In this document: positions 882 through 17,752 of the stretch, one piece after another
How positions within the stretch are numbered: the stretch's first letter is position 1
Layout: each line of letters starts with the position of its first letter
Source: Lachnospiraceae bacterium
GTDB lineage: Bacteria; Bacillota; Clostridia; Lachnospirales; Lachnospiraceae
Reading direction: 5' to 3'
DNA: 38,482 nt
Assembly: GCA_022792835.1 (NCBI GenBank)
Contig: JAAWBT010000039.1
Location: 1-38,482 of the forward strand
The notes under the pieces: generated by a model
Databases searched by the model: none
What the model saw: only the letters and a program-made list of their open reading frames with translations
What the model was told of the DNA's origin: nothing
Translations under genes and position numbers: made by a program

Positions 882-1526
882 CTATTGGACAATATGGGAT
901 ACGCTTTGAATGTGTTCTGTCAGTAGTTTTTTACAAGTCAAAAAATCCCTTTTGGAGAGGGCCTCCATCAGATTTAAATGGGCATGGGCAGCCTCCGTAA
1001 AATCTCGGTTTTCCCAGGGGATTGACAGATAATTGGCTACCACAAAACGACCCTGGGTCCGTTTATATAAATCCGTCAGAAATTCATTGCTGCTTTCTTT
1101 TACCAGAAGCCTGTGAAATTCCAGGTCAGATTTGTTGAATCCCAATTTATCTCCGGCTTCCGTGCTTTTCAGGCCAGAAACAGCAAGTGTATTCAGTTCT
1201 TCACAGATTTTTTCAAATTCCGGAGTCTCGGAATATTTAAACATCTCATCCAGTGCGTAGAGTTCTAAAAGAATACGGACATCACACAGCTGTGCGATCT
1301 GCGTTGGAGTATAAACCGGAACCCGGACCCGTCCGTTTTTCAAAACCTCCAGAATTCCGTCATTGGCCAAAAGCTTCACGGCCTGTACGATAGGAGTGCG
1401 GCTGACACCATATTTTTCTGCAAAGGTGTCCAGGAGGATCTGCTCTCCCATTTTATATTCTCCTAGAATCAGTGAATCAATGATCTGATCATAGATGACA
1501 GTATCTAAATTTCTTTTAAGATTCAT
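882..1526 (-). CDS. GntR-family transcriptional regulator, FCD domain (GntR-1)
   Basis: A 214-residue regulator with an N-terminal winged helix (residues about 5-70, with GVSRTPIVQAVKLL as recognition helix) and a helical FCD ligand-binding domain at the C-terminus. FCD members of the GntR family usually bind small organic or amino acids and control catabolic operons. The start at 1526 is chosen because GAGGGG lies just upstream; an upstream in-frame ATG (1553) lacks a site. The gene is divergent from the Liv-type transporter and shares a roughly 330-base intergenic region with it. That region contains AT-rich inverted repeats also found around the lyase promoter at 7892, so control of both by this protein is inferred. 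Confidence 0.9.
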   Translation of the reverse strand: MNLKRNLDTVIYDQIIDSLILGEYKMGEQILLDTFAEKYGVSRTPIVQAVKLLANDGILEVLKNGRVRVPVYTPTQIAQLCDVRILLELYALDEMFKYSETPEFEKICEELNTLAVSGLKSTEAGDKLGFNKSDLEFHRLLVKESSNEFLTDLYKRTQGRFVVANYLSIPWENRDFTEAAHAHLNLMEALSKRDFLTCKKLLTEHIQSVSHIVQ

Positions 1527-1631
1527 AGTTTCCCCTCGCTCATTACTTATCATCTGCTCCTATCATACATTAAAAATATTTTATTTACAAGAATTTTTAA
1601 AGCGGACAGAGGCATATTCCCATGGTCTGTT

Positions 1632-1667
1632 GAGGCTTCTAATAAAAAAATAGCATATGGAAGCCTC
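1632..1667 (-). other. Hairpin in the 5' leader of GntR-1
   Basis: GAGGCTTC (1632-1639) and GAAGCCTC (1660-1667) are perfect inverted repeats around a 20-base A/T-rich loop, located at or just after the GntR-1 promoter. It could be an RNA leader stem or a protein site; the sequence alone does not decide. Confidence 0.4.
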
Positions 1668-1676
1668 TCATGTCAA
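1648..1676 (-). promoter_or_regulatory. Candidate GntR-1 promoter
   Basis: On the minus strand TTGACA (1676-1671), 17-base spacer, CTATTT (1653-1648). The -35 is perfect and the -10 weak. It is divergent from the Liv promoter, with the AT-rich operator-like repeats between the two -35 boxes. Confidence 0.4.
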
Positions 1677-1677
1677 C

Positions 1678-1715
1678 ATTAAAAATAAATAATTAATAAT
1701 AAAAAATAAAAAATT
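1678..1715. promoter_or_regulatory. Degenerate AT-rich operator repeats between GntR-1 and the Liv operon
   Basis: The stretch 1678-1700 reads ATTAAAAAT, five bases, ATTAATAAT, followed by a further AAAAATAAAAAATTAATT stretch reaching the -35 box. The left arm and spacing match the cleaner 23-bp inverted repeat present twice around the promoter at 7892-7920 (right arm 7 of 9 bases the same). Interpreted as the operator for GntR-1. Confidence 0.45.
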
Positions 1716-1717
1716 AA

Positions 1718-1746
1718 TTGACAAATGCTTTTTGTGCGGTTATCAT
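1718..1746 (+). promoter_or_regulatory. Promoter of the Liv-type transporter operon
   Basis: TTGACA (1718-1723), 17-base spacer, TATCAT (1741-1746), about 105 bases upstream of the substrate-binding protein start. Confidence 0.75.
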
Positions 1747-1858
1747 AAAAACAGAGACAAGAAACAGAGAAAATCGGCCAAACTTAACAAATGAAATCAG
1801 ATAGTAAGTAGGCTCATTCTTGTTTCAACCATTATTTTAAAGTTAGGAGGAAGAAACG

Positions 1859-3100
1859 ATGAAAAAAATGGTAGCTCTGGTGTTGTCAGTGATTATGGTC
1901 CTTGGCCTGGCTGCGTGCGGAGACGGCGGTTCTGAGGACAGCAAAAGCACCACAGCGGCAAAGAACGATGTGGAGCAGGAGACGGTACAAAGTGACGGTG
2001 AGACTCCGGATGTGATCAAGATCGGTGTGGTCTGCGCGATTTCCGGTACTTATGCCCAGGAAGGGGAATATGTAAAGGAAGCAATTGATCTTCTGAAAGA
2101 AGAGTTGGATGCAGCCGGCGGCGTGGAATGGAATGGAACAAAAATTCCGGTTGAATTTATCTATGAAGATAATGAAGGCGATGCGGAGACTTCTGTAAAC
2201 TGCTTCAATAAGCTGATTGACAATGAGGGAGTGATGGCCATCATCGGACCGCCCATGAGCGGCTGTCTGATTGCGGCAGGCCCCATTGCTCAGGAGAATC
2301 AGGTTCCTACCATCGGGACCATGACCACAAACATCAAATGCACCCAGGTGGGAGATTACATATTCCGGGCATGCTTTATCGACAATTTCCAGGCAAAAGT
2401 GGCAGCCAACTGGATGATGTCCGAGGGATATACAGAAGTGGCGATTCTCTCCAACAATGCAGACGATTACAGCACGGGAATGGGCGATGAATTTGAAACA
2501 CAGTTTAAGGCCCTTGGCGGGACGATCTTAGACAGGGAAACTTATGCGGACGCCGGAGGCGGGGATGTGAAAGACTTCAGTGTTCAGCTTACCAAGCTGA
2601 AAAATGCAGAGCCCCAGGCGATCTTTGCACCGGCCTATTATATGAACGTGCCGGATATTCTGGCCCAGGCCACCCAGATTGGGCTGAATGTGCCGATTCT
2701 CGGTACGGACTCTTGGGATACTCCCGATGTGCTGAGCCTGATTGACCCGGCCAATAAGAGTGATGTGTATTATATTTCTGCCTATTCGGCGCTGAACCCG
2801 GACGAAAAGGTCCAGGAGTTTTCCAAGAAGTTCAACGAGGCTTATGGAAAGACCCCCAACTCCAACGGAACCTTTGCCTATGATGCGGCGGCACTGGTTG
2901 TTCAGGCAATCAGCGAGGCCGAGACTTTAGACGGTCCCGGACTCCGGAATGCCATGGCGGCGATCGACTACAATGGCGTGACCGGCTCCACGACTTTTGA
3001 CGAGAACAGGAATCCCATCAAAGATGCGAATATCCTGAAATTTGTCGGCAATGAGGTGGAATTTGTTACGACAGTGAAAGCTTCTGATCTGGCTGACTGA
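1859..3100 (+). CDS. Branched-chain amino acid-type ABC transporter substrate-binding lipoprotein
   Basis: A 413-residue periplasmic-binding-fold protein of the LivJ/LivK family (type I fold, receptor-ligand-binding region about residues 53-400). The N-terminus is a lipoprotein signal with lipobox LAAC (Cys20), followed by a Ser/Thr/Glu-rich tether, so it is anchored outside the membrane. It captures the substrate for the LivHMGF machinery encoded next. Family ligands include branched-chain amino acids, but also amides, urea and aromatic acids, so the ligand is open. AGGAGG precedes the start. It is the first gene of the operon and is followed by a terminator-like stem-loop that probably lets it be made in excess of the permeases. 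Confidence 0.93.
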   Translation: MKKMVALVLSVIMVLGLAACGDGGSEDSKSTTAAKNDVEQETVQSDGETPDVIKIGVVCAISGTYAQEGEYVKEAIDLLKEELDAAGGVEWNGTKIPVEFIYEDNEGDAETSVNCFNKLIDNEGVMAIIGPPMSGCLIAAGPIAQENQVPTIGTMTTNIKCTQVGDYIFRACFIDNFQAKVAANWMMSEGYTEVAILSNNADDYSTGMGDEFETQFKALGGTILDRETYADAGGGDVKDFSVQLTKLKNAEPQAIFAPAYYMNVPDILAQATQIGLNVPILGTDSWDTPDVLSLIDPANKSDVYYISAYSALNPDEKVQEFSKKFNEAYGKTPNSNGTFAYDAAALVVQAISEAETLDGPGLRNAMAAIDYNGVTGSTTFDENRNPIKDANILKFVGNEVEFVTTVKASDLAD

Positions 3101-3210: not shown

Positions 3211-4110
3211 ATGACGATGATATTACAGATTCTGGTATACGGACTTCAGCTGGGAAGCACCTATGCGCTTCTGGCTTTGGGATATTCCATGGTATACGGG
3301 ATTGTAGGAATGATCAATTTTGCCCACGGAGACCTTTTAATGGCCGGTGCATATGTTGCATTCTTTATTTTTGCGGCCTTTGAGACCACACCGTCCAATA
3401 TGCTGATCATCATAGGGGTGATCTTGTTGACGATGCTGATTGTGGGCGCCCTGGGAGCTTTTATTGAGAAAGTGGCTTATAAACCTTTGAGGAACAAAGC
3501 GAGACTGAGCGCGTTGATCACAGCCATCGGTGTTTCCATGTTTATTGAAAACTTCCCCAGGGCACTGCCCTTTATCGGTCCCAATGCGAGAAGCTTTCCG
3601 GCGATCATTCCAGTTAAAGTGATCCAGGTGGGAGCGATCAATGTGACAACCATCCAGCTGGTCACCATAGGGGCGGCTGTGGCCCTCATGCTGGTGCTGT
3701 ATCTATTTGTCAATAAAACGGTCTACGGAAAGCAGATGCGCGCAGTACAGCAGAATAAAGATGCGTCAGCACTTATGGGAATCAACGTAAATGGAATCAT
3801 TTCCCTGACCTTCTTTATCGGGGCGGCCCTGGCGGCTGTCAGCGGCATCCTTTATGCCAGCACTTATCCGACGATCACTCTGACCATGGGCTCAACTCTG
3901 GGAATGAAAGCCTTCATCTGTGCAGTGCTCGGAGGGATCGGCGACATCCGGGGCGCCATGCTGGGCGGTTTTGTGCTGGGAATTGCGGAAATGTACGCGA
4001 ATTATATCAATGCGGATTTCAGCTACGGCATTTCTTTTATCATTCTGATTCTGGTGCTTATTTTGAGGCCCCAGGGACTGGTGGGAAAAGAAACCGTGGA
4101 GAAAGTGTGA
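3211..4110 (+). CDS. livH: Branched-chain amino acid-type ABC transporter permease LivH
   Basis: A 299-residue integral membrane protein with about eight hydrophobic segments. It has the typical LivH start (LQLGSTYALLALGYSMVYGIVGMINFAHGD, residues about 10-40) and the conserved glycine-rich segment near 235-255 (CAVLGGIGDIRGAMLGG). It forms the translocation pore with LivM. AAAGGAGG stands before the ATG. Length and motif order are normal for the family. Transcribed with the upstream lipoprotein through an attenuator; livM begins 10 bases after its stop. Confidence 0.95.
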   Translation: MTMILQILVYGLQLGSTYALLALGYSMVYGIVGMINFAHGDLLMAGAYVAFFIFAAFETTPSNMLIIIGVILLTMLIVGALGAFIEKVAYKPLRNKARLSALITAIGVSMFIENFPRALPFIGPNARSFPAIIPVKVIQVGAINVTTIQLVTIGAAVALMLVLYLFVNKTVYGKQMRAVQQNKDASALMGINVNGIISLTFFIGAALAAVSGILYASTYPTITLTMGSTLGMKAFICAVLGGIGDIRGAMLGGFVLGIAEMYANYINADFSYGISFIILILVLILRPQGLVGKETVEKV

Positions 4111-4120
4111 GGTGCAGAGC

Positions 4121-5110
4121 ATGAAGAAAAAGACAAGAAAAGGAAATCTCATTGCACTGATTGTTGCTGCGGCATTTTATCTGATCGTGTCTCTGCTTAA
4201 CCGGGCAGGGCTTGTGACTTCCTATTACTTACAGCTGATTATGGTGTCCTGTATCAATGTCTGCATGACAGTCAGCCTGAACCTGGTCAATGGGTTTACA
4301 GGACAGTTTTCTGTGGGGCACGCAGGCTTCATGGCCATCGGTTCTTATGTTTCCGGATACATTACAACCCAGGTCATTCCTGCGGGAAGTATCCCGGAGG
4401 CTTTTCAGATTCCAGTATTTTTGCTGGCGCTTGTCGCAGGCGGCCTTGTCTCCGGGCTTTTCGGGGCTCTGATCGGGCTTCCCACGTTAAGGCTTAGAGG
4501 AGACTATCTGGCCATTGTCACCTTAGGATTCGGAGAGGTGATCCGCGCCATTATCCGGCTGATTCCGGCTGTGGGCGGAGCAAGGGGAATGTCCGGGATC
4601 CCCAAATATTCTAGCTTTTTCCTGGTGCTTGTGATCACTGCCCTGATCGTGATTCTGTGCCGGAATATGGTGAATTGTGCTCAGGGAAGGGCATGCGTTT
4701 CCATCCGTGAAAATGAGATTGCGGCAAGCTGCCTGGGTGTAAATACCTTCAAATATAAAATGACAGTGTTTATTGTGGCGGCGGTGATGGCCGGGGTGGC
4801 GGGAGGCCTGTACTCCCATGCTTTGTGTTATACCCAGCCGGATCTTTATTCTTTTCAGAAATCCTGCGATTATCTGGTGTTTTTGTATGCAGGCGGCACT
4901 GCCAGTCTGACCGGTTCCGTGCTCAGTGCGTTTCTCCTCACATTCCTGCCGGAAGTTCTCCGTTTCCTGTCGGATTGGAGAATGGCAATCTATGCCCTGT
5001 TACTGATCGTGATCATGCTGCGGCTTCCCAACGGCCTTTTCGGAGGGCGGGAAATTCCTTTTATGCGGCGTAAAAACTATATTCTGAAAGAAGAGGCGGA
5101 GCACAGGTGA
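4121..5110 (+). CDS. livM: Branched-chain amino acid-type ABC transporter permease LivM
   Basis: A 329-residue membrane protein, the second pore subunit. Conserved LivM features are visible: NLVNGFTGQFSVGHAGFMAIGSY near residues 53-75 and LRLRGDYLAIVTLGFGEVIR near 125-145. The ATG at 4121 is preferred over an in-frame GTG at 4112, because GAGGTG (4109-4114) is at proper spacing from 4121. The stop of livH overlaps this ribosome site, implying translational coupling. Confidence 0.95.
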   Translation: MKKKTRKGNLIALIVAAAFYLIVSLLNRAGLVTSYYLQLIMVSCINVCMTVSLNLVNGFTGQFSVGHAGFMAIGSYVSGYITTQVIPAGSIPEAFQIPVFLLALVAGGLVSGLFGALIGLPTLRLRGDYLAIVTLGFGEVIRAIIRLIPAVGGARGMSGIPKYSSFFLVLVITALIVILCRNMVNCAQGRACVSIRENEIAASCLGVNTFKYKMTVFIVAAVMAGVAGGLYSHALCYTQPDLYSFQKSCDYLVFLYAGGTASLTGSVLSAFLLTFLPEVLRFLSDWRMAIYALLLIVIMLRLPNGLFGGREIPFMRRKNYILKEEAEHR

Positions 5111-5143
5111 CAGAAAATTTTGGAAAGAAAGGCAGATGCAGAT

Positions 5144-5929
5144 ATGGCAATTCTTGAAATTGATAATATAACAATGCAGTTTGGCGGGCTGGTGGCTGTG
5201 AAGGATTTTTCCTTAAAGCTGGCAGACGAAGAGATCGTTGCCATCATCGGCCCCAATGGCGCCGGAAAAACAACAGTGTTCAACATGATCACAGGGATTT
5301 ATCAGCCGACAAAAGGCAGCATTACTCTGGGCGGGACAGATATGCGGGGGAAGAAACCCAATCAGTTTGCCCTGCAGGGAATTTCCAGGACGTTTCAGAA
5401 TATCAGACTCTTTGGAAATGTGTCTGTGATTGATAACCTGATGATCGCACAGACCAGCAGTGTGAAATATGGGCTTGTCGGAGGATTTTTCCGAACACCC
5501 AAATTTATGCAGGAAGAGCAGAGGATGGCGGAAAAAGCATATGAGACTCTGAAGATCTTTCGGCTGGAGGATAAAAAGGATATTCTCGCCAAAAACCTTC
5601 CTTACGGGGATCAGAGAAGGCTGGAGATTGCCCGGGCGCTGATCACAGACCCCAAGGTGCTTTTGCTGGACGAACCCTGTGCCGGAATGGTGCAGAGTGA
5701 AATGGATGACCTGAAAGAAATGATCATGTTTGTGCGGAATCATTTCCACATTGCGATTATCCTGATTGAGCATCACATGAGCTTTGTCATGTCCATTGCA
5801 GACAGGATCAAGGTGCTTGATTTTGGTGAGACCATCGCAGAAGGGGCGGCGGCACAGATACAGACGGATCCAAAAGTAATTGAAGCTTATCTGGGAGGTG
5901 ACTATCATGCCGATACTGAAGGTGAATGA
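5144..5929 (+). CDS. livG: Branched-chain amino acid-type ABC transporter ATPase LivG
   Basis: A 261-residue ABC ATPase. P-loop GPNGAGKT (residues 36-43), the LivG-type signature YGDQRRL (154-160), Walker B LLLDEP (173-178) and the switch histidine in LIEHHMSF are all present. The long segment between Walker A and the signature is characteristic of LivG as opposed to LivF. The start at ATG 5144 gives the usual family N-terminus (AILEIDNITMQFGG); an in-frame TTG at 5120 would add eight atypical residues. The 3' end overlaps livF by 23 bases. Confidence 0.94.
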   Translation: MAILEIDNITMQFGGLVAVKDFSLKLADEEIVAIIGPNGAGKTTVFNMITGIYQPTKGSITLGGTDMRGKKPNQFALQGISRTFQNIRLFGNVSVIDNLMIAQTSSVKYGLVGGFFRTPKFMQEEQRMAEKAYETLKIFRLEDKKDILAKNLPYGDQRRLEIARALITDPKVLLLDEPCAGMVQSEMDDLKEMIMFVRNHFHIAIILIEHHMSFVMSIADRIKVLDFGETIAEGAAAQIQTDPKVIEAYLGGDYHADTEGE

Positions 5930-6620
5930 GTTACAGGTGGCCTATGGAATGATCGAGGCGGTCAGAGGGATCAGCTTTGAGGTAAACGAGGGGGAGATCG
6001 TGACCCTGATCGGTTCCAATGGTGCGGGAAAGACCACAACCCTCCGGGCGATCTCACATTTGGAGAAGGCGAAGGGCGGAACCATTGAATTTATGGGAGA
6101 AAATATCGCAGAACGGCCTGCCCACGAAATCGTAAAACGGGGGATCGCCCACGTACCGGAGGGACGGCAGGTATTCCCTGGACTGAATGTGGAAGACAAT
6201 TTGTTCATGGGCGCGCTGACCAGGCGGGCTGATACAAAGGGGGTCGCAGAGGACCTGGCAAAGATCTATGAGATCTTTCCGAGGCTTAAAGAGCGGAGAA
6301 AACAGGCGGCGGGAACTTTATCCGGCGGGGAACAGCAGATGCTTGCGGTGGGAAGGGCCATGATGACAAGAGGGAAGCTGATGCTTTTAGACGAACCTTC
6401 CATGGGGCTGGCGCCCATGATCGTGGACGAGATCTTTGAGACCATCGAGCTGATCCGGAAGGAGGGCATGACTGTGCTTCTTGTGGAGCAGAATGCGTTT
6501 AAGTCCCTGAAAATCGCAGATCACGCTTACATATTGGAAAACGGCCAGATCACGATGAAGGGGACCGGGAAAGAATTGATTGTGAACCCGAAAGTGAAAG
6601 AGGCCTATCTGGGCGTATAA
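5907..6620 (+). CDS. livF: Branched-chain amino acid-type ABC transporter ATPase LivF
   Basis: A 237-residue ABC ATPase, partner of LivG. P-loop GSNGAGKT (36-43), the LivF hallmark VPEGRQVFPGLNVEDNL (83-99), signature LSGGEQQ (138-144) and Walker B LMLLDEP (158-164) are visible. The start at 5907 follows GGGAGGTGA at ideal spacing inside the end of livG, which indicates translational coupling; an upstream in-frame ATG at 5880 has no site. This completes a full five-part Liv importer. Confidence 0.95.
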   Translation: MPILKVNELQVAYGMIEAVRGISFEVNEGEIVTLIGSNGAGKTTTLRAISHLEKAKGGTIEFMGENIAERPAHEIVKRGIAHVPEGRQVFPGLNVEDNLFMGALTRRADTKGVAEDLAKIYEIFPRLKERRKQAAGTLSGGEQQMLAVGRAMMTRGKLMLLDEPSMGLAPMIVDEIFETIELIRKEGMTVLLVEQNAFKSLKIADHAYILENGQITMKGTGKELIVNPKVKEAYLGV

Positions 6621-6683: not shown

Positions 6684-7853
6684 ATGCAGATTTCGGAATT
6701 GGCCAAGAGTATCACCAAGTCAAAAATCCGGGTGATGTACGATCTGGCGCGAAAGAAGGAAAACGTATTGAGCTTTACGGTGGGAGAGCCTGACTTTATG
6801 ACGCCAAAGCCCATCATTGATAAGGCAAATGAATATCTGAGCAAAGGCTATACCAAATATACGCCGAACCCGGGGATTATGGAGCTCAGAGAGGCCATTG
6901 CGGAAAAATTCAGCCCGGCCTTAAAGCGGAAGATTGATCCGGAGACAGAGATCATTGTGACCGTAGGGGCAACGGAGGCGATTCTTGTGGCCATGCAGAC
7001 CGTCATGAATCCCGGGGACAACATCATTTTGGCAGACCCTTATTTCACCAGCTATACCAATCAGATTAAAATCTGCCACTGCAGCGCCAATCTGGTGCCT
7101 GCAAAGGAAGAGAATGCGTTCTGCATGAGGGCGGAGGATATCGAGGCAGCGGTCAATGAGCGGACGAAAATGCTGCTGTTAAATTCACCCTGCAATCCTA
7201 CCGGCGCAGAGTATTGCGTGGAAGAGCTGGAACAGATCGCAAAAATTGCAGTAAAGCACGATCTGGTGGTGATTTCAGATGAAGTCTATAATACCATCCG
7301 CTACACGGATGAGCCTTTTGTGAGCATTGCCACCATGCCGGGGATGGCAGAACGGACCATCGTTGTGAATGCTTTCTCCAAGGCTTACGCCATGCCTGGC
7401 TGGCGTTTGGGCTATGCCATCGGACCGGCAGAGCTGATTGGCATGATGCCAAAGACCCATGATGTGACAGTGGCCTGTGTCAATGCGCCTCACCAGTATG
7501 CGGGAGCATGGGCCCTGCGAAACTGCGATGAGGAAGTGGCCAGAATGCGGGAAATCTTTCGGAAAAGAAAGGATCTGATTGTGGCAGGGGTCAATGGGAT
7601 TCCGGGCCTTAAATGTTTTGAGCCTAAGGGCGCCTTCTATCTGTGGATCAATATAAAAGAGTTTGGCGCAACTTCAGAAGAGTTCTGCTTTGATCTGCTG
7701 GAAGATCAGAGCATGGCGATTGTGCCGGGCTCCGGCTTTGGAGCGTATGGGGAAGGATATGTACGGATGACCTATGCGGCTGATGAGGCGGCAATCCAGG
7801 AAGGAATCCGGCGTCTGGAAGCCTATGTAAAAAAGCTGAGAGCAGGTAAGTGA
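6684..7853 (+). CDS. Class I/II PLP-dependent aminotransferase (AT-1)
   Basis: A 389-residue fold-type I aminotransferase of the aspartate/aromatic type. Visible motifs are FTVGEPDF near the N-terminus, YTPNPGIMELREAI, NSPCNPTGAEY (PLP phosphate and carboxylate region), the ISDEVY aspartate that contacts the pyridine nitrogen, and the Schiff-base lysine K233 in AFSKAYAMPGWRLGY. GAGGAGA precedes the ATG, 63 bases after livF, so it is probably the last gene of the Liv operon. It would convert the imported amino acid to its 2-oxo acid in the cytosol. Substrate cannot be told from the sequence. It is a homologue of the second aminotransferase at 13515. Confidence 0.92.
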   Translation: MQISELAKSITKSKIRVMYDLARKKENVLSFTVGEPDFMTPKPIIDKANEYLSKGYTKYTPNPGIMELREAIAEKFSPALKRKIDPETEIIVTVGATEAILVAMQTVMNPGDNIILADPYFTSYTNQIKICHCSANLVPAKEENAFCMRAEDIEAAVNERTKMLLLNSPCNPTGAEYCVEELEQIAKIAVKHDLVVISDEVYNTIRYTDEPFVSIATMPGMAERTIVVNAFSKAYAMPGWRLGYAIGPAELIGMMPKTHDVTVACVNAPHQYAGAWALRNCDEEVARMREIFRKRKDLIVAGVNGIPGLKCFEPKGAFYLWINIKEFGATSEEFCFDLLEDQSMAIVPGSGFGAYGEGYVRMTYAADEAAIQEGIRRLEAYVKKLRAGK

Positions 7854-7860: not shown

Positions 7861-7886
7861 AATTAAAAATAAAAAATTTTTAATTT
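7861..7886. promoter_or_regulatory. Operator copy 1 upstream of the lyase promoter
   Basis: Contains ATTAAAAAT, AAAAA, ATTTTTAAT (7862-7884): two perfect 9-bp arms around a 5-base spacer. An identical copy lies at 7927-7953. It begins eight bases after the aminotransferase stop and sits just upstream of the -35 box. Confidence 0.7.
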
Positions 7887-7891
7887 TGATG

Positions 7892-7920
7892 TTGACAAAA
7901 ATGCAAACCAGGGATACAAT
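7892..7920 (+). promoter_or_regulatory. Promoter of the DapA-like lyase gene 1
   Basis: TTGACA (7892-7897), 17-base spacer, TACAAT (7915-7920), bracketed on both sides by identical inverted repeats. Confidence 0.85.
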
Positions 7921-7926
7921 TAGGTT

Positions 7927-7953
7927 AAATTAAAAATAAAAAATTTTTAATTT
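7927..7953. promoter_or_regulatory. Operator copy 2 downstream of the lyase -10 box
   Basis: Second exact copy of the inverted repeat at 7861-7886, placed where the transcript would start. Two identical sites bracketing a promoter suggest repression, possibly with DNA looping, by a dimeric regulator. Confidence 0.7.
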
Positions 7954-8002
7954 AAATTCAGTGCAAAAGGGGTACTGAGAAAGAGGAAAGGAGAAAACAA
8001 AA

Positions 8003-9111: not shown

Positions 9112-9807
9112 ATGAGAGAAATTCAGAGGATATCAATCACAGACGCGGTAGTGGAAAATGTGAAAGAATTAATTGAATCCGGAGAGTACGAGCCGGGGCA
9201 GAAGCTTCCAACGGAGGCGAAGTTGTGCGAAATGCTGGGTGTCAGCCGCACCAGCGTCCGGGAAGCCTTCCGGGTGCTCCAGGCGCTGGGGTATGTGGCA
9301 ATCAAAGCCGGGAAAGGCGCTTTTGTGGCGGAAAAAAAGCCGAGTCAGGGAGAAAAAACCCTTTGGTATGAGGCAGATAATGCGAAATTTTCGGATTTCA
9401 TGGAAGTCCGTTACGCGCTGGAACCCTTGGGGGTCCGTCTGGCTGTGGAACGGGCATCAGAAAAGCAGATTGCAGAGCTTTCGGAAATCCACGATTCTTT
9501 TGTGAAAGCAAATGTAGGACATGACATGGCGAAGTTGATTATGCTGGATGAACTTTTTCATACGAAGATTATGTCCTACACAAGAAATCCTCTGCTGGTC
9601 AACATCAACAAACAGCTCCTGGAAAATTTCCGCGTATACCGGGGAGAGTCGTTTATGAACAGCGAAATATATGGAAATGCAGTCATTCCTCATGGAAGGA
9701 TTCTCCAGTGTTTTGAAAATCATGATCCAAAGCAGGCGGTCCTGGAAATGCAGCGCCATCTGGATATTACCAATGAGGATATGCTGCAGCTGCATAAAAT
9801 GAAATAG
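9112..9807 (+). CDS. GntR-family regulator, FadR/FCD type (GntR-2)
   Basis: A 231-residue regulator. The winged helix is at about 5-75, with GVSRTSVREAFRVLQALGY as recognition region and the wing IKAGKGAFV. A FCD domain follows (about 90-225), in which Asp/His residues such as those in LDELFHTKIM are typical metal-binding positions. It is clearly paralogous to GntR-3 at 11588: LMLDELFHTKIMSYT-like, NKQLL and FRVYRGESF blocks are shared almost exactly. It lies directly downstream of lyase-1 with its own promoter and is followed at 27 bases by an unknown gene with which it may be co-transcribed. Target sites are not obvious. Confidence 0.92.
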   Translation: MREIQRISITDAVVENVKELIESGEYEPGQKLPTEAKLCEMLGVSRTSVREAFRVLQALGYVAIKAGKGAFVAEKKPSQGEKTLWYEADNAKFSDFMEVRYALEPLGVRLAVERASEKQIAELSEIHDSFVKANVGHDMAKLIMLDELFHTKIMSYTRNPLLVNINKQLLENFRVYRGESFMNSEIYGNAVIPHGRILQCFENHDPKQAVLEMQRHLDITNEDMLQLHKMK

Positions 9808-11507: not shown

Positions 11508-11523
11508 ATTGTATGATGACATA
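11485..11523. promoter_or_regulatory. Candidate autoregulatory operator of GntR-3
   Basis: ATTGTATGA is directly repeated 23 bases apart. The second copy continues as TATTGTATGATGACATA (11507-11523), which matches 15 of 17 bases with the reverse complement of 12408-12424 in the promoter of lyase-2. A shared site at the regulator and the neighbouring lyase points to GntR-3 as the binding protein. Confidence 0.6.
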
Positions 11524-11587: not shown

Positions 11588-12301
11588 ATGAAAGAAATTC
11601 AGAGAATATCTGTTACCAATATGATTGCAGAAAATATTCGGGAATTGATTGAAACGGGGAACTATCTTCCGGGGGAAAAATTACCGACAGAAGCCGGCTT
11701 TTGTCAGATGTGGGGGGTCAGCCGCACCAGTATCCGGGAGGCGCTCCGGATTCTTCAGGCATTGGGATATGTGGTCATCAAACCAGGAAAAGGAGCGTTT
11801 GTGGCCGAGGAGCCCTTCTCACAAAAGCAGAAAGATTGGTATGAAACAGAAAATGCGGAGTTTTCTGATTTTATGGAAGTGCGCTTTGCCATTGAGCCGC
11901 TGGCAGTGAGGCTTTCTGTGGAGCGGGCGGCGCCCAGGGAAGTAGCGGAGCTTTTTGAGGTCCACCAATCCTTTATCCGCGCAAATGAAACCCATGATCT
12001 GACGAAAATGATCATGCTGGATGAGCTTTTTCATACAAAAATTATGTCGTATACGAAAAATCCGTTGTTGATTGCAATTAATAAACAACTCTTAAACCGT
12101 TTCCGCGTGTACCGTGGGGAATCTTTCACCAACAGTTATGTTTACAATAACGCGGTGCAGCCTCATGAAAAGATCCTTCAGTGCTTTTATTTGAAGGATG
12201 CCAAAACTGCTGTTTTGGAGATGCAGCGGCATCTGGAGATTACAGACGAAGATATGAGGCGGATTCATGGGAAACAAGTCATGGATTTAAGGAAGTCTTA
12301 A
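11588..12301 (+). CDS. GntR-family regulator, FadR/FCD type (GntR-3)
   Basis: A 237-residue paralogue of GntR-2 with the same order: winged helix (about 5-75, GVSRTSIREALRILQALGY) and FCD domain (about 88-225, with MLDELFHTKIM and FRVYRGESF). The start at 11588 follows GGGGGGAACATGAG. It is probably the local regulator of lyase-2, aminotransferase-2 and the polar amino acid transporter, because its promoter and the lyase-2 promoter share an operator half-site. Its stop codon overlaps the ATG of a 25-codon reading frame, suggesting coupling. Confidence 0.92.
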   Translation: MKEIQRISVTNMIAENIRELIETGNYLPGEKLPTEAGFCQMWGVSRTSIREALRILQALGYVVIKPGKGAFVAEEPFSQKQKDWYETENAEFSDFMEVRFAIEPLAVRLSVERAAPREVAELFEVHQSFIRANETHDLTKMIMLDELFHTKIMSYTKNPLLIAINKQLLNRFRVYRGESFTNSYVYNNAVQPHEKILQCFYLKDAKTAVLEMQRHLEITDEDMRRIHGKQVMDLRKS

Positions 12302-12407: not shown

Positions 12408-12434
12408 TACGACATCATACAATAGGATGTCGTA
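12408..12434. promoter_or_regulatory. Palindromic operator at the lyase-2 transcription start
   Basis: Perfect inverted repeat TACGACATC (12408-12416) and GATGTCGTA (12426-12434) with a 9-base centre, placed just after the -10 box, where a bound dimer would block initiation. Confidence 0.75.
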
Positions 12435-12457: not shown

Positions 12458-13378
12458 ATGAATCCTGTAGTTGAAAAGTATGGAAAGATTTTATTGCCGT
12501 TGATCACTCCCTATGATGAGAACGAAGAAGTGGATTATGGGAAGTATGAAGAGCTGATCAATTATGTGATCGAGAAAGATGTATGCGACTCACTGATTGT
12601 TACGGGGACAACCGGTGAAGCCTCCCTTCTGACCTTTGAGGAGAGAGTGAAACTGCTTAAGACAGCAGTAAAGGCTGCGGCGGGAAGAAAGCCTGTGATT
12701 GCCGGAACTGGCTGCGCTTCTACAAAAGAAACGATTGCTTTGACAAAAGAAGCAGAGAAACTGGGAATCGAACTTTGCCTGGTAGTTGCTCCTTTTTATA
12801 ACAAGCCGACTCAGGAAGGCCTTTACAATCATTATAAGAAGCTGGCAGAGAGCGTAAAGACAGACATCCTTCTGTACAACATTCCCATTTTTGTGGGAGT
12901 AAATCTGGATCCGGAGACTGTGGCTAAATTGGCTCCCATGAAGAATATTGTCGGAATCAAAGACGAGGCGGGGATCAATCCCACTCAGGTCACGGACTTC
13001 TTTATGGCGACAAAGGATATTGATCCTGATTTTGCCGTATACAATGGCGACGACGTCATGCTGCTTCCCACTATTGTACAGGGCGCCATGGGCATCGTAA
13101 GCGGCGGCGCTCACATTTACGGACATGAGATCCGGGCGATTTTTGAAGCTTTTGAGAAGGGGGACAATGCCAAGGCAAAAGAAATTTTTGACCGTCTGTA
13201 TGAGTTCTGCAAATCTTGTGGCCAGAACGGAAGGATTCTTCCGAATTCGATTATCCGTCCGGCCATTGAGGCAGTGTCCGGCGTGAAGCTGGGGCCGGCG
13301 AGAGGTCCTCTTGCTCCGGCCACAGAAGAAGAGTTGGAAGTGACCATGGGAATTTTGAAGGCGCAGGGTAAGCTGTAG
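12458..13378 (+). CDS. DapA-superfamily class I aldolase/lyase, substrate unknown (lyase-2)
   Basis: A 306-residue TIM-barrel enzyme nearer to canonical DapA than lyase-1: GTTGEAS loop, FYNKPTQEGLY, catalytic Tyr140 in LYNIP and Schiff-base lysine K168 in GIKDEAG. However, where DapA has Ser-Arg-Thr after the tyrosine loop to hold aspartate semialdehyde, this protein has Ile-Phe-Val. Its position between a GntR regulator and an aminotransferase plus transporter argues for catabolism of a 2-oxo acid rather than lysine synthesis. AGAAAGGAC precedes the ATG. Genuine 4-hydroxy-tetrahydrodipicolinate synthase remains possible but less likely. Confidence 0.88.
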   Translation: MNPVVEKYGKILLPLITPYDENEEVDYGKYEELINYVIEKDVCDSLIVTGTTGEASLLTFEERVKLLKTAVKAAAGRKPVIAGTGCASTKETIALTKEAEKLGIELCLVVAPFYNKPTQEGLYNHYKKLAESVKTDILLYNIPIFVGVNLDPETVAKLAPMKNIVGIKDEAGINPTQVTDFFMATKDIDPDFAVYNGDDVMLLPTIVQGAMGIVSGGAHIYGHEIRAIFEAFEKGDNAKAKEIFDRLYEFCKSCGQNGRILPNSIIRPAIEAVSGVKLGPARGPLAPATEEELEVTMGILKAQGKL

Positions 13379-13433: not shown

Positions 13434-13514
13434 CATTTTGGGCAGACGATCTGCATACAGCAGTATGGTTTGCGGGATAACTATGATAAATGGCAGTGGT
13501 GCTGGGAGGATGTC

Positions 13515-14687
13515 ATGAAGATTACAGAAAATCCTTACGTTTCAAATGTGGCGAAGGTGATTCAGGGCTCAAAGACCAGATATTTGACGGAGCTGGCGTC
13601 GCAGTATGGGGATGCAATTTCCTTTGCAGTGGGCGAACCGGACTTTACGACTCCGGGACACATTATAGAGGCAGCGGCCAAAAAGCTCCTGGAGGGAGAG
13701 ACCCATTATGCGCCCAATCCGGGAATTTACGAACTGCGGCAGGCAATTGCAGAGGAATATAACCAGAAACATCCGAAGCAGCGCCTCGGCGCGGCCAATG
13801 TGGTTGTCACCAATGGGACGCAGGAGGCAAATCTGCTTGCAATGATGGCGGTCTTAAATCCGGGGGATGAGGTGCTGGTTCCGACACCCAATTATATTTC
13901 TTACATTCCGCAGCTTTTGATGCTCCACGTAAAAGCTGTATTTGTGGAGACTTATGCTGAAAACGGATATGAGATTACGGCAGAGGCCATTGAGGGAGCC
14001 GTCACGCCAAGGACCAGGGCAGTTATGCTGAATTCCCCATGCAATCCCACGGGAACTGTTTTGAGCAGGGGAACGCTGGAAAAGGTAATCGCAGTGGCGA
14101 AAAGGCATAAGCTTGCGATTCTCAGCGATGAGACTTATTCCGAGATTGTATATGAGCCTTTTACCAGTATTTTGGATGTGATGGAATTGGACGAGAGTCT
14201 CTTTTATTGCAGCGGATTTTCAAAATCCTATGCCATGACCGGCTGGAGGCTTGGATATACCATCACGACGGAAGAGACTGCGCTGGCCATCCGTTATCTC
14301 CATGAGAACAGCACGTCCTGCAGCAACACCGCTCTGCAGTATGGGGCTTTGGAGGCAGTCAGAAACGGGGCGGAGGATGTGGAGTATATGCGCCGGAAAT
14401 ATGAAGACAGGCGGAATTTGATTTGTTCACTGCTTGATGAGATCAGGCCGCTGTCTTATGTTCTTCCAAAAGGGGCGTTCTATGTATGGGTGGATATCCG
14501 GAAGACGGGACTTTCTTCCATGGATTTCGCAGACCGTCTTCTGAAGGAGACACATACAGTAATTGCACCGGGAACTGCTTTTGGTGAAGCAGGGGAAGGG
14601 TTTATCCGTTTGTCTTATGCGACCAGTGAAGAGAAGATTGAAGAGGGGTTGAAACGGATTGGAAACTTCGTGAAAACTTTGAGATAG
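13515..14687 (+). CDS. Class I/II PLP-dependent aminotransferase (AT-2)
   Basis: A 390-residue fold-type I aminotransferase. Visible motifs are AVGEPDF, YAPNPGIYELRQAI, NSPCNPTGTVL, the LSDETY aspartate and Schiff-base lysine K237 in GFSKSYAMTGWRLGY. The ATG at 13515 is preferred because GGGAGGATG lies just upstream; the longer frame adds an atypical Trp/Cys-rich leader. It is similar in layout to AT-1 but clearly diverged, so the two probably handle different amino acids. The polar amino acid transporter starts 50 bases after its stop. Confidence 0.92.
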   Translation: MKITENPYVSNVAKVIQGSKTRYLTELASQYGDAISFAVGEPDFTTPGHIIEAAAKKLLEGETHYAPNPGIYELRQAIAEEYNQKHPKQRLGAANVVVTNGTQEANLLAMMAVLNPGDEVLVPTPNYISYIPQLLMLHVKAVFVETYAENGYEITAEAIEGAVTPRTRAVMLNSPCNPTGTVLSRGTLEKVIAVAKRHKLAILSDETYSEIVYEPFTSILDVMELDESLFYCSGFSKSYAMTGWRLGYTITTEETALAIRYLHENSTSCSNTALQYGALEAVRNGAEDVEYMRRKYEDRRNLICSLLDEIRPLSYVLPKGAFYVWVDIRKTGLSSMDFADRLLKETHTVIAPGTAFGEAGEGFIRLSYATSEEKIEEGLKRIGNFVKTLR

Positions 14688-14737: not shown

Positions 14738-15574
14738 ATGAAAAAATTATTATCAGCATTACTGGCAGTCACGATGCTGTCCATGCTCTTTGCCGGCTGC
14801 GGAGGCGGCAAGGATTCTTCGGATGGGGCAGCCGCCGCGGATCAGCTCAGTACCATTTTGGAAAACGGGAAAATGGTTGCGGCCATTGAGGCGGGAAACG
14901 AGCCCTGGGCTTACGCTGATACGGATACCGGGGAGTATACAGGCTTCAGCATTGACCTGATTTCCGGATTTGCAGAAGCAATCGGCGTGGAAATCGAATT
15001 TATGCCCCTGGAATTTTCCGAGATGATTCCGGCTGTACAGGCAGGAAAAGCAGACATTGTCGCTTCCAATATCTCCAGGACGACGGCCCGGGCGGCAACT
15101 GTGCTCTTTACAGATGCCATCGGATATGATAACTGTGTTGCAGTGGTGAGGTCTGACAGTGGACTCACAAGCACCACGGAGCTGGATGTGCCGGAAATTA
15201 CGATTACGGCTCCTGCAGGCAATATCTATGAAGAAATGGCTTATGAAAAATTCCCCAATGCGACAGTCAGTGCGTTGGCCTCTACCAGTGATGCCATCGC
15301 GGCTTTGAAGGCGGGACGTGCAGATGCGTATCTGACCGATACGATTCAGGCGTACAAGCTTTTGGACACTGACGATACGCTTACGATCCTTCCGGAGACC
15401 TTGGATTCTGACACGGTTGCCTATGCGCTGGATCTGGATGTCAACAGCTATACGCTGAGAGACGCATTCAACACTTACCTCAAGGTGATCAAATTGAACG
15501 GAACTTATAATGAGCTTTACAATAAGTATTTTGGTGTTGACTGGGTTCCGTTGATGGGTGAGTATGGCGCATAA
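14738..15574 (+). CDS. Polar amino acid ABC transporter substrate-binding lipoprotein
   Basis: A 278-residue type II periplasmic-binding protein (SBP_bac_3 family). Lipoprotein signal with lipobox FAGC (Cys21), then a short Gly/Ser tether. Ligand-binding landmarks are GNEPWAYAD and TGEYTGFSIDLISGFAEAIG (about 50-75), the segment FMPLEFSEMIPAVQAGKADIV (about 88-108) and the second-lobe block AALKAGRADAYLTD. AGAAGGAGG precedes the start. It delivers an amino acid to the two permeases downstream; the ligand is not predictable. Confidence 0.94.
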   Translation: MKKLLSALLAVTMLSMLFAGCGGGKDSSDGAAAADQLSTILENGKMVAAIEAGNEPWAYADTDTGEYTGFSIDLISGFAEAIGVEIEFMPLEFSEMIPAVQAGKADIVASNISRTTARAATVLFTDAIGYDNCVAVVRSDSGLTSTTELDVPEITITAPAGNIYEEMAYEKFPNATVSALASTSDAIAALKAGRADAYLTDTIQAYKLLDTDDTLTILPETLDSDTVAYALDLDVNSYTLRDAFNTYLKVIKLNGTYNELYNKYFGVDWVPLMGEYGA

Positions 15575-15601
15575 TTAGAATCACTCATGCTGGAATAGGG
15601 A

Positions 15602-15635
15602 TCCCGGACCGTCGGCAGACGCTGTCCGGGACTTT
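15602..15635 (+). terminator. Stem-loop attenuator between binding protein and permease
   Basis: Perfect 8-bp GC-rich stem TCCCGGAC (15602-15609) with GTCCGGGA (15624-15631), then CTTTT. Same position and likely same role as the stem-loop in the Liv operon. Confidence 0.6.
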
Positions 15636-15665
15636 TCAGAGAGTGGATGGGTTAGGAGTGTATAT

Positions 15666-16313
15666 ATGAATGCTGTGCAATTTGCCGGATGGCTTCCAAG
15701 TTTATTGGAAGGTTTAAAAATTACATTGTGCGCATCAATGATCGCAATTGTTACTTCTATTATATGGGGGTCGATCGTGGCGATTTTGGTGGCTTATGAT
15801 TATAAAGTATTGACCTTCTTTATGCGTATTTACATTTCGATCTTCCGGAATACGCCGCTTCTTGTCATCATGTTTTTCTGCTTTTATGGTCTTCCTCTTG
15901 TGAATCTTGAAATGCCGGCATTGGTCTGCGGCATTCTTTCCATTACCTTAAATGAAGGGGCTTTTGTGGCAGAACTGATCCGGGGTTCCATAAAGAATGT
16001 CCCGGCAGGTGAGATTGAGGCAGCCTGCAGCCTGGGATTAAAACGGGGGAAGGTGGTCAGAAAGGTTATTTTTCCTCTGGGATTTCGCAATGCAGTCCCC
16101 ATGCTTACGGGACAAGCATCTGTGATGGTAAAGGATACTTCTCTGTTTGCGCTGATCATGATCGTGGATTTGAACAGGGCGGGAAGCATCTACTATGATA
16201 AATATCTGAACAGTATTTCTATCTGGATCGTTGCGGCTATTTATATTTTGATTTTCCTGGCCTTAACGCAGGCGGGCAGGTTGATTGAAAAGAAAATGAT
16301 GGTGAGGAGGTAA
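15666..16313 (+). CDS. Polar amino acid ABC transporter permease, subunit 1
   Basis: A 215-residue membrane protein of the HisM/GlnP family with about five transmembrane segments. The ABC-ATPase coupling motif is visible as EIEAACSLGLKRGKVVRKVIFPLGFRNAVP (about residues 118-147). The family start GLKITLCASMIAIVTSIIWGSIVAI is also present. TTAGGAG precedes the start. A second, related permease begins four bases after its stop, so the pore is probably a heterodimer. Confidence 0.93.
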   Translation: MNAVQFAGWLPSLLEGLKITLCASMIAIVTSIIWGSIVAILVAYDYKVLTFFMRIYISIFRNTPLLVIMFFCFYGLPLVNLEMPALVCGILSITLNEGAFVAELIRGSIKNVPAGEIEAACSLGLKRGKVVRKVIFPLGFRNAVPMLTGQASVMVKDTSLFALIMIVDLNRAGSIYYDKYLNSISIWIVAAIYILIFLALTQAGRLIEKKMMVRR

Positions 16314-16317
16314 TGCA

Positions 16318-16974
16318 ATGTCATTGGGAAAGATGATTTCATTTATGCTTTCTGGAATCGGTATTACCTTTAAGCTGGTTCCGATCTGTATTATTACAAC
16401 ATTTTGTATTGGAATGATTCTGGGGATTTTCCTCTTCCGCAGATTTCCTGTCTTAAAACAAGTCCTTGGCATTTACAAAGTAGTCATGCGGGGTATTCCC
16501 GCCATGGTGGTGTTAAAGATTCTCTATTATTCTGCAGACTTTTCTTCCGCATTTCTGGCGGCGGTGGTCAGTCTCACGCTGTATCATTCCGCTTATATCG
16601 GCGAAATTATCAGGGGCTGTTTTGAATCAGTGCCTAAGGGACAGATGATGGCAGGACAGTCATTGGGATTGGGATACTGGAAGATTATGTGGAAAGTTTA
16701 TATTCCCCAGATTTTGAAACCGATGATCCCGATGCTGTGTGGGCAGTACATTCTGTTGGTGAAGGACACTACCCTTGTGTATATCGTCGGTGTTCCGGAT
16801 CTGATGTGGAAAGGCCGCCAGCTCATGGCCCTCACGTTTAACCCGATTACCGGATACCTTCTGATCGGTGTGTTTTATTATATCCTCTGTGCTCTGATCG
16901 AGCTGCTTGCCCGCACTGTGGAAAAGAGAATTGTAAAAAAACAGGCGACGAGGGGACTTAGCACTTATTATTGA
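16318..16974 (+). CDS. Polar amino acid ABC transporter permease, subunit 2
   Basis: A 218-residue partner of the preceding permease. It has the HisQ/HisM-type N-terminus (GIGITFKLVPICIITTFCIGMILGI) and the coupling loop GQMMAGQSLGLGYWKIMWKVYIPQILKPMIP around residues 103-133. About five hydrophobic segments. GGTGAGGAGG at the end of the upstream gene supplies the ribosome site. It is followed within about 30 bases by the ATPase gene. Confidence 0.93.
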   Translation: MSLGKMISFMLSGIGITFKLVPICIITTFCIGMILGIFLFRRFPVLKQVLGIYKVVMRGIPAMVVLKILYYSADFSSAFLAAVVSLTLYHSAYIGEIIRGCFESVPKGQMMAGQSLGLGYWKIMWKVYIPQILKPMIPMLCGQYILLVKDTTLVYIVGVPDLMWKGRQLMALTFNPITGYLLIGVFYYILCALIELLARTVEKRIVKKQATRGLSTYY

Positions 16975-17005
16975 TGGATGTTGGCAGAAAAGGAGCGTGG
17001 AAATT

Positions 17006-17752
17006 ATGGAAGACAGAAACACTTTGGTGGAGTTCAAGGATGTCTGTAAAACTTATAAAAATGGGGAGATTGTGATCCTGGATCATTTTAATTTTGATTT
17101 CCTCCAGGGGGAGACACACGTGATCTGTGGGAGAAGCGGAGCAGGAAAGAGCACGTTGATCCGCTGCATCAATTATCTGGAAAAGATCGACAGTGGGGAG
17201 ATTCTGGTGGAGGGAAATACTGTGAACCGGCATACAGCCACAAGCGTCAGGAAAAGAATTGCCATGGTATTTCAGAATTTCAATCTCTTTCCCAATATGA
17301 CGGCCCTGGAAAATGTGACTTTTGGACCGATCGAGTCTCTACACAAAAGTAAAAAGGAAGTGGTGGAGAGTGGGAAAATGTTTTTGGAAAAGGTTGGCCT
17401 GGCAGACAGGATGGATTCCAAGCCCAGCCAGCTTTCCGGCGGCCAGCAGCAGAGGGTTGCCATTGCCCGGGCGCTGAACATGTTTCCGGACATGATTTTG
17501 TTTGATGAGCCGACCAGTGCTCTGGACCCGGAGATGGTGGGCGAGGTGATTGACATCATGGAAGAACTGGCGGATGAAAAACGGAGCATGATTGTGGTCA
17601 CCCATGAGATGGGGTTTGCAAGGGAGGCGGCCCATAGGATTTCTTTTATGGAAAACGGAACCTTCATCGAGACGGCTGATCCCAATGAGTTTTTTAATCA
17701 CCCGAAGCATGAGAGCGTGGCAAGGTTTATCCGGCAGATTCAGACCGTGTAA
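17006..17752 (+). CDS. Polar amino acid ABC transporter ATPase (GlnQ/HisP-like)
   Basis: A 248-residue ABC ATPase. P-loop GRSGAGKST (42-50), Q-loop VFQNFNLFPNMT, signature LSGGQQQR (143-150), Walker B MILFDEPTSALDP (163-175) and switch histidine in VVTHEMGFA. The ATG at 17006 has AAAGGAG ten bases upstream; a GTG at 16997 is too close to that site. It energises the two upstream permeases and ends the module B operon, followed by a terminator. Confidence 0.95.
   Translation: MEDRNTLVEFKDVCKTYKNGEIVILDHFNFDFLQGETHVICGRSGAGKSTLIRCINYLEKIDSGEILVEGNTVNRHTATSVRKRIAMVFQNFNLFPNMTALENVTFGPIESLHKSKKEVVESGKMFLEKVGLADRMDSKPSQLSGGQQQRVAIARALNMFPDMILFDEPTSALDPEMVGEVIDIMEELADEKRSMIVVTHEMGFAREAAHRISFMENGTFIETADPNEFFNHPKHESVARFIRQIQTV

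Follow-up and report, generated by a model that had tools for sequence, protein, structure and literature searches.

The window analysed here, the whole stretch of 38,482 nucleotides, is contig C88 (JAAWBT010000039.1, assembly GCA_022792835.1) of a draft Lachnospiraceae genome of 2.59 Mb in 100 contigs that is 84.5% complete (G000, hereafter the own genome). Between positions 882 and 17,752 it carries two neighbouring gene sets, modules A and B, which a sequence-only reading had described as paired routes for the import, transamination and cleavage of an amino acid. A check of open reading frames (ORFs) and Pfam profiles across 882-17752 placed all of the named genes at the positions claimed, and by Pfam each set combines an amino acid ATP-binding cassette (ABC) importer with a class I aminotransferase, a DHDPS-superfamily lyase and GntR/FCD regulation.

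882..1553, minus strand: GntRa, GntR/FCD regulator of module A (Pfam GntR and FCD)
1664..1746, no strand: module A promoter region with AT-rich repeats and a sigma-70-like TTGACA-17-TATCAT at 1718-1746 (consensus match only)
1859..3100, plus strand: SBPa, Liv-type substrate-binding lipoprotein (Peripla_BP_6, 190.5 bits)
3211..4110, plus strand: LivH-type permease (Pfam BPD_transp_2)
4112..5110, plus strand: LivM-type permease (Pfam BPD_transp_2)
5120..5929, plus strand: LivG-type ATPase (Pfam ABC_tran and BCA_ABC_TP_C)
5880..6620, plus strand: LivF-type ATPase (Pfam ABC_tran)
6684..7853, plus strand: ATa, class I aminotransferase A (Aminotran_1_2, 233 bits; motifs SKAYA, NPTG, VRMTYA)
7862..7958, no strand: two AT-rich palindrome copies (AAATAAAAAATTTTTAATTT) around a promoter-like TTGACA-17-TACAAT (7892-7920), 5' of lyase A (1 mismatch to AAATAAAAAATTTTTTATTT)
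8003..8914, plus strand: LyA, DHDPS-superfamily lyase A (PF00701, 171.7 bits; GSTGE, FY, YNNPWFAG, IKAAHGD, YGHD)
9112..9807, plus strand: GntR2, GntR/FCD regulator between the modules (Pfam GntR and FCD; 68% identical to GntR3)
9835..11277, plus strand: 480-residue ORF between the modules, flanked by two GntR genes (ORF only)
11509..11523, plus strand: putative operator TTGTATGATGACATA 5' of GntR3 (exact match)
11588..12301, plus strand: GntR3, GntR/FCD regulator of module B (Pfam GntR and FCD)
12408..12422, minus strand: putative operator TTGTATGATGTCGTA, directly 3' of the lyase B promoter-like site that starts at 12375 (exact match)
12458..13378, plus strand: LyB, DHDPS-superfamily lyase B (PF00701, 247.3 bits)
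13470..14687, plus strand: ATb, class I aminotransferase B (Aminotran_1_2; 41% identical to ATa)
14738..15574, plus strand: SBPb, polar-amino-acid-type substrate-binding lipoprotein (Pfam SBP_bac_3)
15666..16313, plus strand: polar amino acid ABC permease 1 (Pfam BPD_transp_1)
16318..16974, plus strand: polar amino acid ABC permease 2 (Pfam BPD_transp_1)
16997..17752, plus strand: polar amino acid ABC ATPase (Pfam ABC_tran)
17804..17827, plus strand: intrinsic-terminator-like hairpin 3' of module B, 8 pairs of which 7 are G-C, with a T-rich tail (consensus match only)

Both modules contain the Pfam families of an amino acid ABC importer, with a binding protein, two permeases and one or more ATPases, and the GntRa gene is divergent from the rest of module A. 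The solved chains nearest to SBPa, 4gnr and 3td9, are titled as branched-chain amino acid transport proteins. In SBPb, one Arg and one Asp align with residues of the same kind in amino-acid binding proteins of solved structure, residues that we take to contact the ligand. The 480-residue ORF gave no Pfam or NCBIfam match, and no corresponding ORF lies at the equivalent place in L016, a locus of the same genus.

A genome-wide profile search detected five DHDPS-family proteins in the own genome. The true DapA scores 338 bits, adjoins dapB and keeps the Arg138 motif, and one further protein lies in an operon that resembles a sugar-acid operon by eye and scores 279.5 bits against a NanA cut-off of 281. 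The remaining three are the lyases of import-aminotransferase sets, LyA and LyB in the window and LyC on another contig (C87, locus L008). All three match the DHDPS/NAL superfamily profile (PF00701) over its full length, with the Schiff-base Lys, the proton-relay Tyr and G-x-x-G-E; LyC has Phe instead of Tyr107. Alignment bore out the claim that lyases A and B retain the catalytic Lys and Tyr and lack the Ser-Arg-Thr motif of DapA, in that the DapA motif Y-N-V-P-S-R-T-G is YNNPWFAG in LyA and YNIPIFVG in LyB. At the S-R-T-G of E. coli DapA (137-140), LyA has W-F-A-G, LyB I-F-V-G and LyC Q-C-S-A, and Arg138, which binds aspartate semialdehyde in DapA according to the excerpt of PMC3188589 used here, is absent from all LyA, LyB and LyC rows of the active-site table. 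The residue two positions after the Lys, given in the same excerpt as Ser198 in human HOGA and Ala163 in E. coli DapA (PMC3188589), aligns with Ala in LyA, Glu in LyB and Ser in LyC. At the substrate-binding Asn78/Ser198 of HOGA (human numbering) the three lyases have Thr/Ala, Thr/Glu and Thr/Ser, respectively, and none is classed as a HOGA. Because these active-site residues differ among LyA, LyB and LyC, the pockets differ, and the three substrates probably differ from one another.

Against the NCBIfam dapA model (TIGR00674, cut-off 206.15 bits), LyA scores 144.1, LyC 184.8 and LyB 241.9, so that only LyB lies above it; all three are far under the NanA, archaeal 2-keto-3-deoxygluconate (KDG) aldolase and KdgD cut-offs, and LyA is under each NCBIfam cut-off among the matches listed. 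Because LyB exceeds the dapA cut-off although Arg138 is gone, it is likely to be misnamed as dapA by automatic annotation, and its relatives in catabolic-looking sets make it a warning for such annotation. In a tree of 54 lyases (36 rows in clade A, 5 in B and 4 in C; the tool warns of long-branch attraction), the three clades each have 100/100 support and long stems, and none lies within DapA. The LyB clade is the sister of DapA with 91/90 support. A phylogeny of the two lyases had been proposed earlier as a check, and in this tree neither A nor B groups inside the DapA clade; LyA and LyB are 29% identical and belong to separate deep clades. Neither window lyase is a lysine-pathway enzyme.

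ATa and ATb match the class I/II aminotransferase profile (PF00155) and carry motif residues that we take to be the pyridoxal-phosphate-binding Lys and the carboxylate-binding Arg. Together with ATc of the third set, they remain under the NCBIfam cut-offs in the best 25 of 99, 95 and 55 rows, with no named equivalog, and the three stand apart in a tree of 29 aminotransferases whose deep forks are weakly supported. A search of 299 family genomes at E<=1e-110 recovered ATb from the own genome and from none of the other 298; across seven genomes that carry related sets, the protein closest to ATb is 46% identical. Related aminotransferases at L082, L077 and L015 (G175, G508; also near the G228 set described below) occur with IclR, Eda and KdgK-like genes, a hint that the 2-oxo product of such aminotransferases may be a 2-keto-3-deoxy sugar acid. 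KDG-type neighbours (KdgK, Eda, KduD-like) were not seen in the three sets of the own genome.

The combination of importer, class I aminotransferase and pyruvate-type lyase is a real, recurring cassette family. In the third set of the own genome (L008:2224-9176), lyase C, a Liv binding protein, LivH, M, G and F and an aminotransferase follow one another on one strand. G228 carries a Liv importer, an aminotransferase, an alcohol dehydrogenase (by eye), KduD (417.9 bits against a cut-off of 338.85), a LyA relative, DhaK and DhaL, and G178 has a LyC relative, an aminotransferase, a polar importer and then an aspartase-like gene. Chloroflexi loci L044-L046 combine two LyA relatives with a polar-type importer, an RraA-type aldolase (above one cut-off in the L044 copy, which was scanned) and an aminotransferase. 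The second LyA relative there (L044:10996-11907, L045:9857-10777, L046:10996-11907) has GxxGE changed to GSTAE or GSTSE, Ser at the Y107 site and the motif YNNPYAAG, and is perhaps catalytically altered to judge from these residues. At L040 an ATa homolog (66%) adjoins LyA, with BPD_transp_1 permeases, an alanine racemase and an Fe-ADH gene nearby.

A single contig of a near relative (C219 of G506, the genome that contains L016 and also L073) holds three import-aminotransferase-aldolase sets. Module A comes first on this contig and is followed by regulators and by lyase B in inverted orientation; next is a set with another lyase, a Liv importer and an aminotransferase, and an HpaI-type set comes last, with a glycerate kinase gene between these last two sets. 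The last set consists of an aminotransferase, a Liv importer, a tartronate-semialdehyde reductase (411.9 bits against a cut-off of 340.75) and an HpcH/HpaI aldolase that does not reach the HpaI and GarL cut-offs. Because a non-homologous pyruvate aldolase of HpaI type occupies the lyase slot, this set favours retro-aldol cleavage, and it is the best single argument for it. DhaK homologs near LyA (L025, L039, L041 and G228) and Fe-ADH-family genes near LyA (L027, L035 and L040 by Pfam, L023 and L029 by clustering, L025 by eye) further make the products look like aldehydes or trioses.

Lyase A itself is patchily distributed. It was detected in 1 of 120 family genomes, the own genome only (E<=1e-40), in 3 of 391 class genomes with the own included (1e-50) and in 6 of the 11 genus genomes sampled, again with the own included (1e-40), where it is 89-97% identical. 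The closest lyase A proteins among named records are from Lachnospiraceae, including Candidatus Paralachnospira caecorum, and a search of 72,556 plasmid records at 1e-50 returned zero matches. A scan of named genomes with the peptides YNNPWFA and [LR]T[IV]WN[EA]DE recovered 31 loci with lyase A relatives, several of them short or cut at their ends; conservation at those peptide positions is partly by construction because the peptides served as query, and L015, recovered without the peptide scan, likewise has YNNPWFAG. Such an aminotransferase lies in the fetched stretch of 6 of the 31 loci and Liv-type importer genes in 12.

Within the genus (loci L017, L018, L020, L019 and L016 belong to G684, G687, G688, G690 and G691, paired by contig position), the gene order of module A is repeated in L016 and L017, where the ORF selection used masked the LivG ATPase gene. 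A Liv importer and aminotransferase thus form the front end of lyase A in 3 of 6 genomes (own, L016, L017). Behind a different Liv importer, L018 and L019 (lyase A 90%) carry Ldh_2-family dehydrogenases, then an SDR gene and then lyase A. In L020 (lyase A 89%) the Liv importer lies downstream, and an aminotransferase of this type is absent from the fetched stretch; farther along the contig, about 16 kb downstream of lyase A, is one that shares 39% identity with ATb. Since lyases A that are 89-97% identical stand beside either an aminotransferase or Ldh_2, they would act on the same 2-oxo acid, and the carbon skeleton is probably common to the amino acid and the hydroxy acid. The exchange of aminotransferase for dehydrogenase next to a lyase about 90% identical offers a direct handle on the substrate. 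A protein of about 430 residues was also observed near lyase A (L018:7650-8942, L019:7643-8935, L023:7780-9069); its L019 and L023 copies have no Pfam match at 1e-8, and lactate racemase as an identity for the L018/L019 protein was rejected for lack of a Pfam match in the L019 copy.

At 1e-100, 4 of the 391 class genomes, the own among them, have a lyase B match. Its neighbours in G220 and G298 are TRAP transporters, electron-transfer flavoproteins, a glycolate/lactate-type FAD oxidase and a glycerol-dehydrogenase-like gene, and in G174 the relative adjoins a TctA-like gene on a 9.4-kb contig. As ATb has no close match in the family and these relatives show no such aminotransferase in the fetched stretch, module B and the doubled layout were seen in the own genome only. 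Duplication of one module into two was considered and rejected: the lyases are 29% and the aminotransferases 41% identical, the importer families differ and the clades are separate, GntR2 and GntR3 (68%) being the sole duplicate-looking pair. With lyases A, B and C and aminotransferases a, b and c in separate clades, the trees point to independent assembly, and the window seems to hold independently assembled sets that became neighbours. Their side-by-side position looks like a chance neighbourhood of the own genome. What recurs of the layout proposed in the sequence-only reading is therefore the single cassette, with other parts, in G228, G178, G506 and Chloroflexi. The doubled pair as a meaningful unit did not hold up: its parts are not duplicates, it is not conserved in the relatives looked at, and L017 has module A without an adjacent module B.

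Operator-like motifs accompany both modules. For lyase A, the palindrome AAATAAAAAATTTTTTATTT was sought within 300 bases upstream at 32 loci (L013 and L025 left out), with 200 dinucleotide shuffles per locus. The window copy has 1 mismatch, with 0/200 shuffles equally good; 13/32 loci match at <=2 mismatches and 15/32 at <=3. In each of the 15 positive loci 0/200 shuffles matched as well, a test that addresses composition only, because the regions tested also supplied the motif. Among the 17 loci without the motif are those of Chloroflexi and proteobacteria as well as L015 and L040. Homologs of GntRa (E<=1e-15, 31-71% identical) occur in 12 of the 31 scan loci, and the palindrome at <=3 mismatches is present in 10 of these 12 vs 4 of the 18 tested loci without such a homolog. 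Upstream of the L020 lyase A, 5' of position 10001, a module-B-type site (2 mismatches, 0/200 shuffles) stands in place of the GntRa-type palindrome, possibly a regulator swap of a GntR2/GntR3-type for a GntRa-type site.

Both the GntR3 and the lyase B promoter carry an exact copy of TTGTATGATGWCRTA, the putative module B site. L016 has three exact copies, two between lyase B and GntR3 and one before the next lyase, and G220 has a copy with 2 mismatches before lyase B and another with 1 before a dehydrogenase gene. At <=2 mismatches, the own genome gives 14 matches to the site and 9 to the same sequence written backwards, so that the site does not stand out, and the analysis was restricted to exact matches; there are three, two in module B and a third on C53 upstream of an unrelated-looking gene. 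At <=3 mismatches the window holds 3 matches vs 2.4 expected. Promoter-like sites in the region number 33 vs 23.5 expected and terminator-like hairpins 15 vs 17.4 expected from shuffles. A regular-expression search for a simple GntR consensus found nothing consistent.

Taken together, we put at roughly 60% the probability that each set is a cassette for the breakdown of a particular type of alpha-amino acid taken up from outside, which would be transaminated and then split by retro-aldol cleavage to pyruvate and an aldehyde. The ABC importer would take up the amino acid, and the aminotransferase would pass its amino group to an acceptor to give a 2-oxo acid that should bear a 4-hydroxyl. The lyase would form a Schiff base at the 2-oxo group and cut between C3 and C4. 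If pyruvate were the acceptor, the lyase would regenerate it, and the net conversion would be of a gamma-hydroxy amino acid to alanine and an aldehyde; 2-oxoglutarate might serve instead, with the glutamate dehydrogenase-like gene seen at 30683-32047 of the window. The GntR/FCD proteins are predicted to repress the sets through dedicated operators, and the cassette may be modular, with similar lyases fed by aminotransferases or by 2-hydroxy-acid dehydrogenases. The non-DapA lyases and the pyruvate-plus-aldehyde outcome proposed in the sequence-only reading are retained, the latter as the likely sense of an HpaI-type aldolase in the lyase slot and of the DhaK and alcohol dehydrogenase neighbours. 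Its idea of import, transamination and cleavage as one unit agrees with the recurrence from independent parts; the link to ATb was seen in the own genome only.

Several observations weigh against this reading. The DHDPS superfamily also has dehydratases and deaminases, and its Schiff-base fold leaves the reaction unfixed. A ligand is not readable from binding-protein sequence, the Arg and Asp of SBPb indicating an amino acid at most, and neither window module contains an aldehyde-processing gene. With several stretches short or cut, 25 of the 31 lyase A scan loci have no such aminotransferase in the fetched stretch, nor do the fetched stretches of G220, G298 and G174, the lyase B relatives from other families; in L016 lyase B is inverted and has no adjacent aminotransferase. 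Recycling of alanine and pyruvate in an in vitro cascade of the aldolase HBPA with a transaminase worked with one aldehyde and failed with most, in the part of PMC8482765 considered. The base rate is also low. Among DHDPS matches listed below 275 bits in a sample of 118 genomes, counted by eye and possibly including DapA fragments, 2 of 35 have a class I aminotransferase close by (G162, G178; own genome excluded, and the set of G228 not in the list), compared with 3 of the 4 non-DapA DHDPS proteins of the own genome, whose window was chosen because of its layout.

The lyases could instead be ordinary sugar-acid or hydroxy-acid aldolases, the adjacent importer and aminotransferase serving common amino acids and the adjacency reflecting shared regulation or chance. 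The many scan loci without an aminotransferase fit this explanation, as do the single genome with ATb and the frequent position of LyA and LyB relatives near transporters of the Liv, Tct or TRAP type and enzymes that oxidise 2-hydroxy acids. We nevertheless consider it unlikely, given that co-directional importer-aminotransferase-lyase sets recur with unrelated parts, a non-homologous aldolase included, and that L040 retains the ATa-LyA adjacency despite importer genes of another kind. It is distinctly improbable that the lyases dehydrate, deaminate or decarboxylate a 2-oxo acid through the Schiff base. The superfamily does include non-aldol members, 5-keto-4-deoxyglucarate dehydratase and the deaminase of the hydroxyproline pathway, and the three lyases show no more than a general match to the DHDPS fold, under the NanA, KDG-aldolase and KdgD cut-offs, with Ala (LyA) and Glu (LyB) where HOGA has Ser; the HpaI-type pyruvate aldolase that replaces the lyase in one set and the triose and aldehyde genes near some LyA relatives speak for cleavage.

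Operation in the synthetic direction, from pyruvate and an aldehyde through a 4-hydroxy-2-oxo acid to a gamma-hydroxy amino acid, deserves very little weight. The importers are binding-protein-dependent ABC systems, which mediate uptake, and the regulators belong to the GntR/FCD group, whose members act mostly in catabolism; an aldolase-transaminase pair does run that way in vitro in the excerpt of PMC8482765 used here. A redundant lysine pathway, with DapA and an LL-diaminopimelate aminotransferase, is scarcely credible even with LyB above the dapA cut-off and sister to DapA (91/90). The separate dapA (338 bits) adjoining dapB, the missing Arg138 and the position in the tree led us to reject a role in lysine biosynthesis, and the aminotransferases are far under the LL-diaminopimelate aminotransferase cut-offs.

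Going beyond the catabolic reading, we offer as a tentative and rather doubtful proposal that gut anaerobes carry plug-in cassettes for a nutrient class that is not known to have been tracked, alpha-amino acids that bear a gamma-hydroxyl and may resemble sugars (2-amino-3-deoxy). A single lyase family whose active site stays fixed would serve both an amino acid and the hydroxy acid with the matching carbon skeleton, its front end being exchanged among species of a genus, and with pyruvate as acceptor the net products would be alanine and an aldehyde. Should the catabolic reading itself be right, a set of amino acids from the gut or food would have regulated cassettes dedicated to their uptake and cleavage, and more of these could be sought by the rule that an importer and a class I aminotransferase accompany a pyruvate aldolase of whatever family.

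Elsewhere in the window, positions 379-783 encode a small protein, predicted to be secreted, in which P-T-E-A units recur and one end is rich in Cys and His; it has no Pfam match. A four-gene minus-strand set at 22511-27844 resembles MacAB/HlyD-type efflux, one membrane-fusion-like protein having GETETP repeats (by eye). At 32149-33976 a DeoR-like regulator (by eye) faces a class II aldolase gene, which is above the NCBIfam cut-off for a ketose-bisphosphate aldolase subfamily; a GatY-like gene was also seen by eye in the sugar-acid-like operon L007.

No published description of this layout was recognised in the open PubMed Central (PMC) literature, where subscription journals are mostly outside and where several queries covered the best-ranked matches only; the cassette family is built from known chemistry in a packaging for which that literature yielded no description. 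In the mammalian hydroxyproline route, a 4-hydroxyglutamate aminotransferase step precedes HOGA1. HOGA is the DHDPS-family class I aldolase of this breakdown and releases pyruvate, in the account excerpted from PMC3188589. The route is thus alike in having transamination followed by a DHDPS-family aldolase that yields pyruvate, and unlike in being mitochondrial, in serving a single substrate (4-hydroxy-2-oxoglutarate, to glyoxylate) and in having no operon with importer and regulator; moreover, Asn78/Ser198 of HOGA is not kept as a pair in LyA, LyB or LyC. HBPA is, we assume, also a DHDPS-superfamily member. Cascades of HBPA and a transaminase make gamma-hydroxy-alpha-amino acids in vitro (PMC8482765, in the part cited), and so both enzyme types act on the compound class proposed here, in a system that, unlike the cassettes, is man-made and runs in the synthetic direction.

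DapA (4-hydroxy-tetrahydrodipicolinate synthase) shares the fold and the catalytic Lys and Tyr with the window lyases and is the sister of LyB in the tree, whereas the window lyases lack Arg138, have another genomic context and sit in separate long-stemmed clades. In the sugar-acid pathways of YagE and YjhH, a dehydratase supplies the 2-oxo acid and no aminotransferase is known to take part. These two E. coli enzymes are DHDPS/NAL-family aldolases of non-phosphorylative pathways that, in the portion of PMC6336799 cited, convert a 2-keto-3-deoxy acid to pyruvate and an aldehyde, as proposed for the cassettes. YagE and YjhH fall in a different clade from LyA, LyB and LyC, and the transporters and dehydrogenases near the hydroxy-acid-type LyA relatives look similar in kind to those of their pathways.

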